Positions 10,166 to 36,360 of a DNA stretch of 64,000 nt are shown one piece after another. Every line of letters begins with the position of its first letter. Position 1 is the stretch's first letter. The position numbers and the translations under genes were made by a program. This DNA comes from Hexactinellida sp. DTS-2022 (lineage: Eukaryota > Porifera > Hexactinellida), in assembly GCA_028753945.1 (NCBI GenBank), contig JAPNXP010000011.1, positions 3,100,001-3,164,000 on the forward strand. Direction: 5' to 3'. The notes under the pieces are model-generated. The model saw only the letters and a program-made list of their open reading frames with translations. It was not told where the DNA came from and did not search any database.

Positions 10166-10170
10166 TGAAG
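10166..10170 (+). repeat. 5-bp target-site duplication TGAAG (left)
   Basis: TGAAG directly precedes the left TIR of the Transib/RAG1-like element and is repeated exactly at 13373-13377 after the right TIR. Five bases is the duplication length made by Transib and RAG transposases. Confidence 0.95.
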
Positions 10171-10195
10171 CACAGTGGGTTATTGACAGGAAGTA
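10171..10195 (+). promoter_or_regulatory. Left TIR with heptamer and subterminal GGAAGT motif
   Basis: CACAGTG is followed by an 11-nt spacer and then GGAAGTA at 10189-10195. The right end has GGAAGT twice, 9 and 20 nt after its heptamer. These may be transposase-binding words; this is inference from repetition only. No canonical RSS nonamer is seen. Confidence 0.5.
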
Positions 10196-10776
10196 TGGTC
10201 AAATTTTCATGTTCTCAAATACCCCTAAAACTTGCTATTGTATTCAGCATAGTCTAAAACCTAGGTAGCTTTAATTTCAGGTAATAATTCCAAATATAAT
10301 GAGAAATAGAGAGCATCAAATCATGGATTTTTAAGTATTGTATTATTGAAATTTTGCAGTTTCATAATATCGCTTCACATCATGCTCTTGTTCTCAGTAG
10401 GCTTCTATCAGAATGAGTTAAGACTTTTAGTACATGTAATTATACCTTGGATCATCCTAAAACAGTTGTATACTAAATATAGATTGGAATAATTATTGGT
10501 CTAATCTGCCATAAAAATAGTTTTCGCTGTAATTGTCCGGATGCATATGTTCGGACAGTTGATGGTGAATAAACTTATGGTGGTGCGAGGTGGTGTCTAT
10601 CCAGACCGATTTTTATTTATACCTTACATAATTATCTTGTGATTTAACCACTATCCAGCCCCGCACAACACCGCGCAAGTGAAAATATTTATATAATTTG
10701 GATGATAACTTTCATTATTTATACAAATTTGTGTAATTTACTTGTTGAATAACATTGTAGCATTTATTCTTCTTAA

Positions 10777-13106
10777 ATGAATAATTTTGAAGCTTGGAAG
10801 TACCTTTCAACTCAGGAATCAATACGTGCTGCTGCTTTGAAATATGTTGAAGAATTTGAATTAGATGATAGCGAATTCGATGGTTTACGGTACAAATTCA
10901 GAAATCTTAAACCTACGAGGGATTCTGCGAAAGGCCAAGAAGATGGAGGAATGGGAGGCTGAAATATTTTACACGTTTCCATCAACACATTCCCCGAAGC
11001 AACAGCTTCTCGAGGAAAAGCTTATCATCGAATCTGATCTATCAATGGAAATAAGAAAGCCCCTATCTCTACTTACCCTGAAAGCCTTGAGGACAAGACT
11101 TGATCCGGTTTTGAAAATAATGCACGCATTTTCGCTTAAGGAGGAAGTTAACTCAAACATAATAGCTGCCTATGCACTAATGTTATTATCTAATGGATCC
11201 CGAGATGTTAACACCGCTAATGTTTGCAAGGAAATAATAGCGACCGGAACATATGCTAATCTGTCCAAAACCCTACCTATTGACAAGTCCACTTTCTTGC
11301 TTGACATCCTTGAAATAGGAAAGCTAAAATATACGAACTTTCGACGTCTTTGCAAATCTGAGAACATCACCTTCCCCTCTTATTCTAGACTAGCTCAATA
11401 TCGTAATGATGTCAATTTAGTTAACGAGTTAACATTTGTCACAAATCCAATGAATGTGACCATCGGAATCGCGATTTCTTACAGAAGTATTTTACGACAG
11501 ACCCTGCTAAGGGTATTCGAAACTAATCCTCCACTCTTTGAATCTCATTTTCCTTTGACAGTAAAGCTATCAGATGGTCTTGATGGGTCTGGTTGTCACC
11601 AAATTTATAATCAGTATGAGCTACATCCAACTCCAAGCACAAAAAACTTCATTTTATTCGCCTTCAAACTACTGTCAATTCATGACTCTGATAATATCCA
11701 AGTTTGGAAAAATAACTCGCCTAATTCTTCGTTTGGAGTAAGGCCTGTTGTACTACTTGCTCAAAAGGAATGTCTTGATAAAGTTAAGTTTATAATGGAA
11801 AATATCATTAATCCTGAAGTGAACTCTATTGAACAAGATGGCTTACAGTTACCTCAAGGAATGGTGCAAGCCAAGATCATTCGTAGTATGCTTGATGGCA
11901 AAATGTCTGGGATTCTTAGCGGAGCTGGAGGCGCACACTGTCAATTGTGTACTGCAAATCTTAAAGAACTTAAAGACCTGGAAATGGTTAGGGCTGGTTT
12001 CCCCATTAATCGACATATTTTGGACGCAATAGATTTGTTTACTTTCGTAGTTAAAGACGAATATCTATCCCTCCCCTCCAGTCAAAGGTTAGGCATTACT
12101 CATGAACCAGTTTCTGACAGAAATATTTTATCGGCTTCACCTCTACACAGTTATACATGTGTATTCAGATCAAGGTTTCATCCAGGCGTATGCAGCGCGC
12201 CTGGAGGCGCGTGAATTTGGAAGGAAAAATTTCTAGGCGCGCGAAAATCGATAGATGCTTCCATAGACGTAATACAAAATGTGTAATTTAGGCGCGTGTG
12301 AGCGAGCTCAAACTAAATCTAGGCGCGCGGGAAATTATGTCTGAATGAAAGCCTGATTCAGATGGTTCATGCTCTTGGTGTACCATTTACATTCTGGAAA
12401 ATTTGTCTGGTCACCGACTTCGAAAGCGGTCGAAGCTTCAAAGAAATTTTGCAGTGATTTCTTATTTGAGAAAACTGGACTTCGAATTGACCAACCTACA
12501 AGTGATGGTGGTACTACTTCAACAGGAAATATTGCTCGACAATGCTTTGGCAATAAGAATGAGTTTATTTACTACGTTTCGTCGCTAATACCCTCAAAAT
12601 TTAGGGATGATATCTCCATACTCCAGACTAATCTCTCAGCAATTTTACGAATATTCAATAGTAGCCAGGAGGTAAATTCAGAAAATTTGGAGGAATTAAG
12701 TAAAAATACATACGAACTAATACTAACTACCTTTCCATGGGCCAATATAACACCATCTTTACTTAAACTCCTAGCTCATTGTACCGAACTAATTCGAGAT
12801 TGCAACGATGGATATGGACTTAAAGAATATTCAGAGGAAGCAATAGAATCATGCAATAAGTTAATCCGGCGCTATCGAGAACATCTATCCAGAAAAAATT
12901 CTTTTACCCTCAACTTAAAAGATGTGTTCACTCGTCTTCTCAGTCAGAGTGATCCTCTCCTCTCTAGCTATCGTAGAACATTAATTTGCAAGCATTGTGG
13001 TGAAATAGGCCATATTAGGAGTGAAAAATGTAAAGTTAGCAAAGTACCGCTTTTGAATCAAGACAAACTGGTCGATTCTTTACTGTTCAATAAACTTGTG
13101 ATATAG
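10777..13106 (+). pseudogene. RAG1-like/Transib transposase, about 710 aa, disrupted
   Basis: The protein starts with ATG at 10777 and reads in frame to about 10918. It then needs a 1-nt shift at an AGGG run to continue through 12170. A MITE (12171-12355) plus its TSD copy interrupts it, and the frame resumes exactly after the insertion to the stop at 13106. Family motifs in order: DGLDGSG with the first catalytic Asp (codon at 11573), PNSSFGVRP, MLDGKMSGIL with the second Asp (11894), GGAHCQLC giving a CxxC zinc pair, an acidic ESCNKLIRRYREH carrying the catalytic Glu (12846), and a C-terminal CKHCGEIGHIRSEKC, a Cx2Cx3GHx5C motif like the C-terminal tail described for invertebrate RAG1L. The His that usually precedes KLLxH is Leu here (CTT). 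The spacing and ESxNKLxRR match point to RAG1/Transib rather than Chapaev. Confidence 0.88.
12171..12355. mobile_element. hAT-like MITE (185 bp) inside the RAG1-like gene, TSD ATTCAGAT
   Basis: The ends are CAAGGTTTCATCCAGGC and, reverse complemented, CAGGCTTTCATTCAGAC, flanked by ATTCAGAT at 12163-12170 and 12356-12363. Its interior is rich in AGGCGCGC. Related copies lie at 58788-58980 and about 33826-34015. Element plus duplication is 193 bp, which shifts the frame by one. Reading across the precise empty site rejoins the two halves of the transposase. Confidence 0.93.
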
Positions 13107-13358
13107 TTGTCTATTTCTACATAGCTCAAACTGTAATTGTTTATACTGTGTACTGTGCATGATACTGCATAACTTAAAATCAGAAAATAAAATTATTTGA
13201 AAATGATATGTCATGATGACGTCATAACCCAAAAAATTGAAGCCATATAAAAAATCTGAGGGTGTAATTCGATTTTTTGAGTATGATAACCTATACACTT
13301 ATAATACATTTCATTGCTCTATATAGCAAGGAAATGCCTACTTCCCGTGAACTTCCAA

Positions 13359-13377
13359 AATAACCCACTGTGTGAAG
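13359..13377 (-). repeat. Right TIR and TSD of the Transib/RAG1-like element
   Basis: AATAACCCACTGTG (13359-13372) is the exact reverse complement of the left TIR. TGAAG at 13373-13377 repeats the left flank. Confidence 0.95.
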
Positions 13378-13379
13378 AT

Positions 13380-13992
13380 CCTAAAATAGACTAATTATTA
13401 ATTAAACTCTCGAGCTCACATAATTTTTATCTAAGAATTGGCATAAATTTGGAAAAAAAATTTGAATTGGAATATTTCTTATAATTTCAGCGAATTCTAA
13501 GAAAACACTAGAAATTATCTGAGAATTTGTGTAAATGCGAATAATTTGGCAAGTATGACATATTCTAGATTTTTTTAGAATTAGAGCCAATTCTACAAAT
13601 ATTCTTTTAACTAAGAATTGAAATATTTCTGAGAATTTTAGGCAATTCTAGGAAAATTCTAGAATTTCGTTATTAAATTTAGTAAATAGGAACCCAAGGG
13701 GATTATTTTTTGATGTAGATCTCTGAGAATTTTCCTTGGTTTTGACTATTTTCTTAGAATTTGACTGAAATCTCAAAATATTATAACAATTTTTCCACAT
13801 TGAATAACGATTCTTAGAATCATTTAAAGTAGTATTTACGAAACTTCTAAACACAAATTCTATGGATATTTCCTTAGTTTTAGCAATCAGTTAGAATTTA
13901 CTAAACTCAGAGAATTTTCTTTGTTTTAAAGAAATTCTGTAAATGCTGTAATTCTAAGAATTTTTATAATTATTTCCCCAATTCTAGGATCA
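13380..13992. repeat. AT-rich stretch with diffuse AATTCTAGA/GAGAATTT word repetition
   Basis: Words such as GAATTCTAAGAA, TCTGAGAATTT and TTAGAATTT recur many times at irregular spacing without a fixed period. No gene is visible. It may be a decayed satellite or low-complexity DNA. Confidence 0.5.
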
Positions 13993-32879: not shown

Positions 32880-33586
32880 TCTATACTATTAAAACTCTAT
32901 TGTTTATTTGTGTGTTTGCGTTTTGTCCAACTTGAATTATAGAGATAGCACAGTGGTACGAAATGGTCAAATCCTGGAAGTAGCTATTAAGTATAGGATA
33001 GCGCATTAAACTATATTATTTACCTATGGAAAATCGCATTCATAGAATCCATTGATATAATTAGATTTTTTCTTTGACTTCGGACGTGAAAGTTATGACC
33101 TAATTGTTACTTTCTTGAAAGTGTTATAATTCACCTAATACTCATAACTCACATTTAATGAGATAGAGACGTGAAAAATAATACATTATGTATATTAATA
33201 TTGTCTACATATCTCTCACCAAAAATCACGAATATGCTTATTAATTATCAAATTATTAAGTCATTATGACGATACAAAAATTGTGAAAATTCACTTAAAC
33301 GCATGTAATTCGCACCCTCAAACGAGATAACAATCTGGAAAGTTAATAGAACATATACATTAATAATGTGGACATGGACATACACCATGTTATCAATATT
33401 ATTCCTCATTACCGGATGACGACGCAATCATTAAAACTTCACATTGTTATATTTTACTATTAGAGGCCTTTTAACCTATAATTAATGTTGGAAGTACAGA
33501 CCACACACGAACCACAAAGCGGTTAGTGTGTGTATGTGTTCTGTCTCGAAGCGACTTATTTGGCTACGCGCGCTATTCAACATTAA
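32880..33586. mobile_element. Helitron-like non-autonomous element
   Basis: The 5-prime end TCTATACTATTAAAACTC is characteristic of animal Helitrons. The 3-prime part carries an ACCACAAAGCGGTTAGTGTG hairpin and GCGAAGC-like words, as at 9630-9800. There are no TIRs or TSD. The exact 3-prime end is uncertain. Confidence 0.55.
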
Positions 33587-35276: not shown

Positions 35277-36360
35277 TCTATATTATTAAATCTCGATTGT
35301 TGTTTGTTTGTGTGTTTGTCCGGATTGTATTAAAGTGATGGGGGAATAGAAACCGCATTAATATATGAGATATAAACTAACTGTCAAATGTTATAATTGG
35401 TAAACAAATGTTATAATAGGTAAACAAGTATGCTGAACACGAGTTTCGCATTTACATATTTATAATATGAATATTTGTTGTTGTTGTTTACACAAAATAG
35501 GTAAACAATTAATGAAAATTCAAAATCAACCTAGAAGTTAACTTTCAACGGGTATTAAAGGTAAACAAGTATGCTGAACACGATTTTCGCGTTTAAAAAT
35601 TTCTAATATGAATATTTGTTGTTGTTGTTGTTTACACAAAATAGTTAAACAAATTAATGAAAATTCAAAATCAACCTAGAAGTTAGCTTTCAACGAGTAT
35701 TATAGGTAAACAAGTATGCTGAACACGATTTTCGCGTTAAAAATTTATAATATGAATATTTGTTGTTGTTTACACAAAATAGGTAAACATAATTAATGAA
35801 AATTCAAAATCAAACTAGAAGTTAACTTTCAACGGGTATTATAGGTAAACAAGTATGCTGAACACGATTTTCGCGTTTAAAATTTTCTAATATGAATATT
35901 TGTTGTTGTTGTTAACACAAAATAGGTAAACAAATTAATGAAAATTCAAAATCAACCTAGAAGTTAGCTTTCAACGGGTATTATAGGTATACAAGTATGC
36001 TGAACACGATTTTCGCAGTTAAAAAATTTCTAATATGAATATTTATTGTTGTTTACACAAAATAGGTAAACAAATTAATGAAAATTCAAAATCAACCTAG
36101 AAGTTAGCTTTCAACGGGTATTATAAGTAAACAAGAGAGCTGAACACGAATTTCACATTTATAAAATTATAATATGAGTATTTGTTGTTGTTGTTGTTGT
36201 TTACACAAATAGGTAAACAAATTAATGAAAATTCAAAATCATAACGTCCCTTTCTACCATTTTCATGGTAGCAAGTGTGAGGGTAAGGCCGCATAGCGGC
36301 CGTTAACTTAAGGTGCGTAGCACCAATCTGTCGCAAAGCAACCGAGACCGAAGGGCTCGT
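35277..36360. mobile_element. Helitron-like element with amplified internal repeat
   Basis: The 5-prime start is TCTATATTATTAAATCTCG. The 3-prime end has hairpins GGCCGCATAGCGGCC and GGTGCGTAGCACC and then CGAGACCGAAGGGCTCGT, matching 6440-6790. Compared with that copy, about 850 bases of tandem repeat have been added. Confidence 0.55.
35390..36240. repeat. Tandem repeat, unit about 140 bp, six copies
   Basis: Each unit runs through AGGTAAACAAATTAATGAAA, CCTAGAAGTTAGCTTTCAAC, GGGTATTATAGGTAAAC, GCTGAACACGATTTTCGC and AATATTTGTTGTTGTT. The TTG triplet run varies in length between units. Confidence 0.85.

Follow-up and report, generated by a model that had tools for sequence, protein, structure and literature searches.

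A Transib transposon related to RAG1 in a glass sponge, with an exact V(D)J heptamer and one short and one long end

The element and its copies

The window analysed here, a 64,000-nucleotide stretch of contig JAPNXP010000011.1 from the glass sponge Hexactinellida sp. DTS-2022, contains at positions 10171-13372 a Transib transposon that encodes a RAG1-related transposase (Table 1). As the initial annotation of this DNA had proposed, the element is bounded by identical 14-bp terminal inverted repeats, which begin with CACAGTG, the exact consensus heptamer of the V(D)J recombination signal sequences (RSSs), and it is flanked on both sides by the perfect 5-bp target-site duplication TGAAG. It is this exact pair of 14-mers that constitutes the evidence in the window, not looser matches: with up to 3 mismatches allowed, the window holds 5 matches against 6.46 expected, which is the chance level. 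The three RAG1-core motifs claimed in that annotation (DGxDGSG, LDGK...GGAxCxLC and ESxNKLxRRxR) are all present in the transposase, as SDGLDGSG, LDGKM...GGAHCQLC and ESCNKLIRRYR. Small indels disrupt the early coding region of the window copy, and farther downstream it is interrupted by a 193-bp insertion, the ends of which are imperfectly inverted (CAAGGTTTCAT.../...GAAAGCCTG) and which resembles a small element of what we take to be the hAT type.

Table 1. Features of the Transib element in the window
Feature	Positions	Strand	Remarks
Left 5-bp target-site duplication, TGAAG	10166..10170		sequence flank
Left terminal inverted repeat, CACAGTGGGTTATT	10171..10184	+	consensus RSS heptamer CACAGTG at 10171-10177
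Short-end spacer, 11 nt	10178..10188	+	upstream of the transposase gene
Short-end second element, GGAAGTAT	10189..10196	+	matches GGAANTAG at 6 of 7 scored positions
Start of the transposase gene, first frame	10777..10962	+	interrupted by a small indel
Open frame, middle of the transposase	10865..12214	+	RNase H part, first three catalytic acids and CxxC
193-bp insertion in the transposase gene	12163..12355		8-bp repeat ATTCAGAT at 12163-12170 and 12356-12363
Open frame, C-terminal part of the transposase	12357..13106	+	zinc-ligand His region, last catalytic Glu, zinc knuckle
CCHC zinc knuckle, CKHCGEIGHIRSEKC	12987..13031	+	CTT1/CTT*-like tail; zf-CCHC match under its cut-off
Long-end second element, GGAAGTAG	13338..13345	-	
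Long-end spacer, 20 nt	13346..13365	-	downstream of the transposase gene
Right terminal inverted repeat, identical 14 bp	13359..13372	-	heptamer at 13366-13372
Right 5-bp target-site duplication, TGAAG	13373..13377		sequence flank

The element is not alone in the genome (112.4 Mb), where the exact 14-mer CACAGTGGGTTATT has 34 matches, against 1 for the reversed control. Twenty-two of these pair into 11 two-ended elements, the window copy included, and the other 12 are single (10 were examined; the remaining two, on contig 18, were left out). All 11 two-ended copies carry a perfect 5-bp duplication (TGAAG, TGCCC, TGCCA, TAGTA, CGCTG, TGAGA, AAATG, CACGA, CAATC and, twice, CATGG), so that the shared ends and duplication length expected of further copies were indeed found. 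The copies fall into two subfamilies, A (the window copy, L009 and L010) and B (L011-L018), with identities of 98.8-99.5% within A and 98.0-99.8% within B, and the transposase frame is uninterrupted, at 711-713 codons, in five of the 11 (L009, L010, L011, L013 and L014). Between the subfamilies the synonymous sites are saturated (pS 0.76-0.79, pN 0.20-0.21), and despite this divergence the 14-bp ends are identical. Two of the elements with an uninterrupted frame, L013 (6,100 bp) and L010 (3,735 bp), exceed the copies of about 3.0 kb, and seem to carry additional insertions outside that frame. The annotated absence of a RAG2 partner agrees with the 3,010-bp copy L009, in which the transposase is the sole frame of at least 150 codons and no space is left for RAG2; a genome search with the RAG2 model PF03089 gave no match, as was equally the case for 14 control genomes.

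With a single transposase, conserved ends, perfect 5-bp duplications and near-identical copies, the element is read as a Transib that moves by cut-and-paste. We consider it very probable that it is an autonomous-type, RAG1L-like Transib of Subgroup I, broken in the window, whose short and long ends are read in two parts without RAG2. Subgroup I, as defined by Tao et al. 2022, comprises Transibs with the alpha11-alpha12 region, the CTT1 tail and asymmetric ends, which are closer to RAG1L and have been proposed as intermediates; its members include Transibs of ctenophores, Hydra Transib-9 and others, and the main text names no sponge (PMC9435367).

Short and long bipartite ends

Both ends of the element are bipartite, consisting of CACAGTG, a spacer and GGAARTAG, with a spacer of 11 nt on the upstream and 20 nt on the downstream side of the gene. 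This arrangement is widespread in the genome. A degenerate search for upstream-type ends gave 82 matches, from many end families, with none for the control, and the pattern CACAGTGG-N{4,19}-GGAANTAG has at least 675 exact matches, with none for the reversed control, distributed by gap as 385 at N4-10, 22 at N11-18 and 268 at N19. Among the first 100 of the 675 listed, the spacer after the heptamer measures 11 nt in 50, 10 nt in 5, 20 nt in 42, 19 nt in 2 and 15 nt in 1. When convergent neighbours less than 8 kb apart are taken from the same 100, 22 of 23 pairs join a short end to a long one (against random pairing, binomial P 1.4e-6, an optimistic value because the copies are related), and the lone exception, an 11/11 pair, has no duplication. 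With positions 4-6 of the heptamer freed there are 371 matches (control 0), and CACAGTG is the heptamer in 94 of the first 100 listed.

Elements verified by their duplications number 26, in 12 end families. They comprise the 11 exact-14-mer copies, for which the motif was not used, 11 fetched pairs, both ends of which were found by the pattern, and 4 followed single ends, whose partners were identified by heptamer and duplication alone. All 26 join a short end (10-11 nt) with a long one (19-21 nt): the spacer pairs are 11/20 in 20 elements, 11/21 in three (L055, L056 and L067), 10/20 in two (L032 and L043) and 10/19 in one, that is, a drift by one base around two lengths. The 11 pattern-found pairs are 974-2,111 bp long, their longest frames span 52-183 codons, and they are probably non-autonomous elements mobilised in trans. 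Nine of the 20 fetched convergent pairs, the 11/11 pair among them, were discarded as their duplications do not match; of 20 single ends followed, 15 were partnerless and one candidate was dropped for its poor heptamer; and L019, a pair outside the 20 fetched, has a duplication off by one base and was left uncounted.

The window holds a second long-spacer end, at 32949-32983 (CACAGTGGTACGAAATGGTCAAATCCTGGAAGTAG), which belongs to another family of the same group; within 12 kb no partner shares a duplication with it. Two repeat regions also lie in the window: AT-rich degenerate repeats to the right of the element (13464-13692), with a 78-nt pair of 73% identity, and a tandem array at 35412-36241, in which a 140-bp unit is repeated about 5.8 times or, alternatively, a 282-bp unit 2.9 times.

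The transposase and its relatives

Searches scoring the candidates with most shared words (7,995 of them for the 712-aa protein of L009) gave that protein 64 relatives, and all 13 that are named come from another glass sponge, Oopsacas minuta, which by itself would make a hexactinellid host probable. A COX1 search aimed at the host gave no match, with 8 of 14 controls positive. By sequence and fold alike the best matches are HzTransib first and then RAG1 and RAG1L, in keeping with the Transib/RAG1-like assignment made initially. In Pfam scans, neither the window frames nor four intact relatives (P0001, P0002, P0019 and P0035) matched any other transposase family, be it Chapaev/CACTA or another. 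The Pfam RAG1 model scores 22.6 bits on the window fragment, under its cut-off of 25 bits; P0001 (28.8) and P0002 (26.1) pass, P0035 (23.8) falls under it and P0019 has no match. The catalytic DDE(E) and the zinc residues are invariant.

Two features set the sponge-type proteins apart from the insect-type Transibs compared, with which they share the fold, the DDE and zinc residues, a length of about 700 aa and an N-terminal nonamer-binding-like motif (HzTransib and its insect relatives form Subgroup II): (i) The stretch from CxxC to the conserved His, which holds the alpha11-alpha12 region, spans 65-67 residues in 18/18 full-length sponge-type proteins, 60-68 in RAG1L and 64 in RAG1, whereas it is only 28-30 residues long, with the region missing, in the insect-type Transibs (22/22). 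(ii) A CCHC knuckle lies within the last 130 residues in 12/18 full-length sponge-type proteins (19/66 entries, several of them partial; the window copy, P0001 and P0002, and thus both subfamilies, have it) and in 43/49 RAG1L-range proteins, against 0/71 in the RAG1 range and 0/120 Transibs, these being the best listed of 1015 matches, many without a source name.

By identity and tree distance the sponge-type proteins lie nearer to Transib (22.5% vs 19.1%; path 4.18 vs 5.20). They have in common with Transib a GGTTSTGN-type loop that is missing in RAG (nine printed representatives), and the N-terminal RING/zinc-finger part of RAG1 was found nowhere in their roughly 710 aa, either by Pfam in the four intact relatives or in the alignment. 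Their N-terminal region does align with the RAG1 nonamer-binding domain, the RAG1 alignments beginning at profile position 68. We rejected this domain as a special sponge trait, since insect-type Transibs share its RKPF..DL..K.KRR motif; the crystallised HzTransib chain begins downstream of that motif. The alignment and tree cover 68 of 306 proteins (sponge-type 18/66, Transib 22/120, RAG1L-range 20/49, RAG1-range 8/71). The tree is unrooted and has three groups, so that it yields distances but not the sister of the sponge proteins; in it RAG1L is not one clade and RAG1 is nested inside. The peptide patterns of profile A1 hit 61 stretches in GTDB contigs and 73 in IMG/VR, none of which was confirmed as a bacterial or viral relative; two patterns alone, however, put the bacterial origin proposed in PMC9435367 to a weak test.

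With its single transposase gene, alpha11-alpha12 region, CTT1 knuckle in most sponge members, asymmetric ends and 5-bp duplications, the element resembles the described Subgroup I Transibs, and is filed there by these features, with the reservation that the knuckle is missing from 6/18 relatives and that no named Subgroup I protein is in the tree. Its CACAGTG and its 10-11/19-21 spacing were measured here, whereas the published Subgroup I ends were compared by description only.

How the ends may be read, and what follows

On the analogy of RAG1 and HzTransib, the transposase would nick just outside CACAGTG, leave hairpins on the flanking DNA and blunt signal ends, and join the freed ends to the target with a 5-bp stagger. 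Each end would be read in two parts: the catalytic core would contact the heptamer, and the spacer and GGAARTAG would fall to the N-terminal nonamer-binding-like domain, joined by the zinc-knuckle tail in proteins that have one; from its alignment with the RAG1 domain, the N-terminal region is the likely reader of GGAARTAG. Synapsis would work best between one short and one long end, as under the 12/23 rule, and without RAG2. The 9-10 nt by which the two spacers differ amount to nearly one helical turn, as do the 11 nt that separate 12 from 23, so that this pairing could be imposed by a tilted dimeric end-binding domain of the kind known from RAG.

Some observations weigh against this two-part, paired reading. 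The end pattern itself served to find 15 of the 26 verified elements, which partly builds in the conservation of the motif letters in their families, and for 11 of those 15 a match at a spacer of 5-20 was required of both ends. The eight B copies hardly differ from one another, and the independent count is at most 12 families, some of them related. Symmetric ends are said to be found in most Transib families (PMC8289069). The nonamer-binding domain taken alone matches weakly (3gna, E 0.016), and the absence of the CCHC knuckle from six of the 18 full-length sponge-type proteins implies that the knuckle is not essential.

The identity of the heptamer with that of the RSSs is a separate matter. 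It probably reflects convergence among ends that start with CAC, through the shared nick-and-hairpin chemistry, and would then be silent on the descent of the RSSs; this is the likelier reading, we found nothing against it, and it is compatible with a Subgroup I Transib whose ends are read in two parts. The relatives have different heptamers: CACTATG in ProtoRAG, CACTWMC in protostome RAG-like (RAGL) transposons and CACACCC in algal RAGL (PMC8289069, PMC7204232, PMC9435367), and an RSS heptamer placed in the 5' end of ProtoRAG is reported to work about equally well (PMC8289069). Taken on its own, the exact heptamer says little about descent, given that related ends vary at positions 4-7 and that ProtoRAG accepts the RSS version in its 5' end. 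The initial interpretation of the element is supported, the exact heptamer and the lack of RAG2 included, with two qualifications: the element is a member of a group already known, and the most telling evidence on RSS origins is the paired short and long spacers, which that annotation did not claim.

For the pairing, the alternative is descent alone, from one asymmetric ancestor of all 12 families and with the spacing under no selection. The families are indeed related, as their similar end sequences indicate, and kin families can share a spacing that has no function. However, among the 12 family representatives positions 2-11 of the short-end spacer hold only 0.2-0.7 bits, against 1.3-2 bits at 7/8 motif positions (the motif letters having entered the search for 10/12 families), and the deviating lengths (10, 19 and 21) move by a single base, as if kept near two values; we therefore regard descent alone as unlikely. 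Less probable still is a RAGL transposon that lost RAG2L, with the alpha11-alpha12 region, the knuckle and the asymmetric ends as remnants of a RAG2 partnership, for although the RAG1L-like CxxC-to-His length and CCHC tail would suit it, identity, tree distance, the Transib-type loop and the missing RING part all speak for Transib, and the same feature set occurs in the bacterial-rooted Subgroup I Transibs (PMC9435367).

Compared with known signals, the Subgroup I-like sponge ends show both likenesses and differences: (i) With the vertebrate 12/23 RSSs they share the exact CACAGTG, the combination of one short and one long signal and an offset of about one helical turn, but their spacers are 10-11/19-21 and their second element is GGAARTAG rather than the nonamer ACAAAAACC. 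(ii) ProtoRAG and RAGL also have the CCHC tail, the alpha11-alpha12 region, heptamer-like ends and 5-bp duplications, and some RAGL have bipartite asymmetric ends, whereas the sponge element has neither RAG2L nor the RING part, starts with CACAGTG instead of the RAGL heptamers, and differs from the 27/31 spacers of ProtoRAG. (iii) The ends of Aureococcus RAGL consist of 13-bp and 10-bp elements, 4 or 13 bp apart (PMC9435367), a spacing that becomes 10/19 when recounted from the heptamer, nearly the sponge 11/20. (iv) Transib5 of Drosophila and Transib2 and N1-N3 of Anopheles have short/long 12/23 ends, asymmetric like those of the sponge (PMC8355894); these are five insect elements, against at least 675 pattern matches in many families with the exact CACAGTG in the sponge.

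Much of the framework was already in place (PMC9435367, PMC8355894): the kinship of Transib and RAG1, the 5-bp duplications, and Transibs of a single gene whose ends resemble RSSs and can be asymmetric and whose proteins can carry RAG1L-like tails. Asymmetric ends are described for Subgroup I (PMC9435367) and 12/23-like ends for the five insect elements (PMC8355894). Literature searches, judged from listings and passages rather than full readings, found no description of a glass-sponge Transib, no exact CACAGTG in a Subgroup I element and no genome-wide count of short/long pairing. In five papers that mention both Transib and Porifera, the passages on Transib describe none from a sponge, and in the main text of two glass-sponge genome papers "RAG1" and "transposable" are absent and "transposon" occurs once each. 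A survey cited in PMC13327316 finds "CMC-Transib" widespread in eukaryotes, so repeat tables may already contain sponge Transibs that nobody has named.

The findings bear on how the 12/23 rule arose. One review (PMC8355894) holds that only in jawed vertebrates, with RAG2, does the recombinase recognise the asymmetry, and that few Transibs are asymmetric; here a relative whose element lacks RAG2 shows short/long pairing in 26/26 elements of 12 families. The exact RSS heptamer and the alpha11-alpha12 region, equivalent to the part on which RAG2 docks, are already present without RAG2, the discrimination of short/long from short/short pairs in its absence becomes directly testable, and the glass sponge probably joins the hosts of RAG1L-like Transibs. 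We advance tentatively, as a possibility that we ourselves find somewhat doubtful, an "11/20 rule" for the hundreds of transposon ends in this non-bilaterian: without RAG2, a RAG1-type transposase would need two bipartite signals, one with a short and one with a long spacer, each containing the exact V(D)J heptamer. The algal RAGL, whose 10/19 spacing is almost the same, gives the best indication that the difference between short and long ends is ancient. If the rule were true, paired signals offset by one helical turn would predate both RAG2 and V(D)J recombination, and 12/23 would be a modified inheritance rather than an invention of the immune system.

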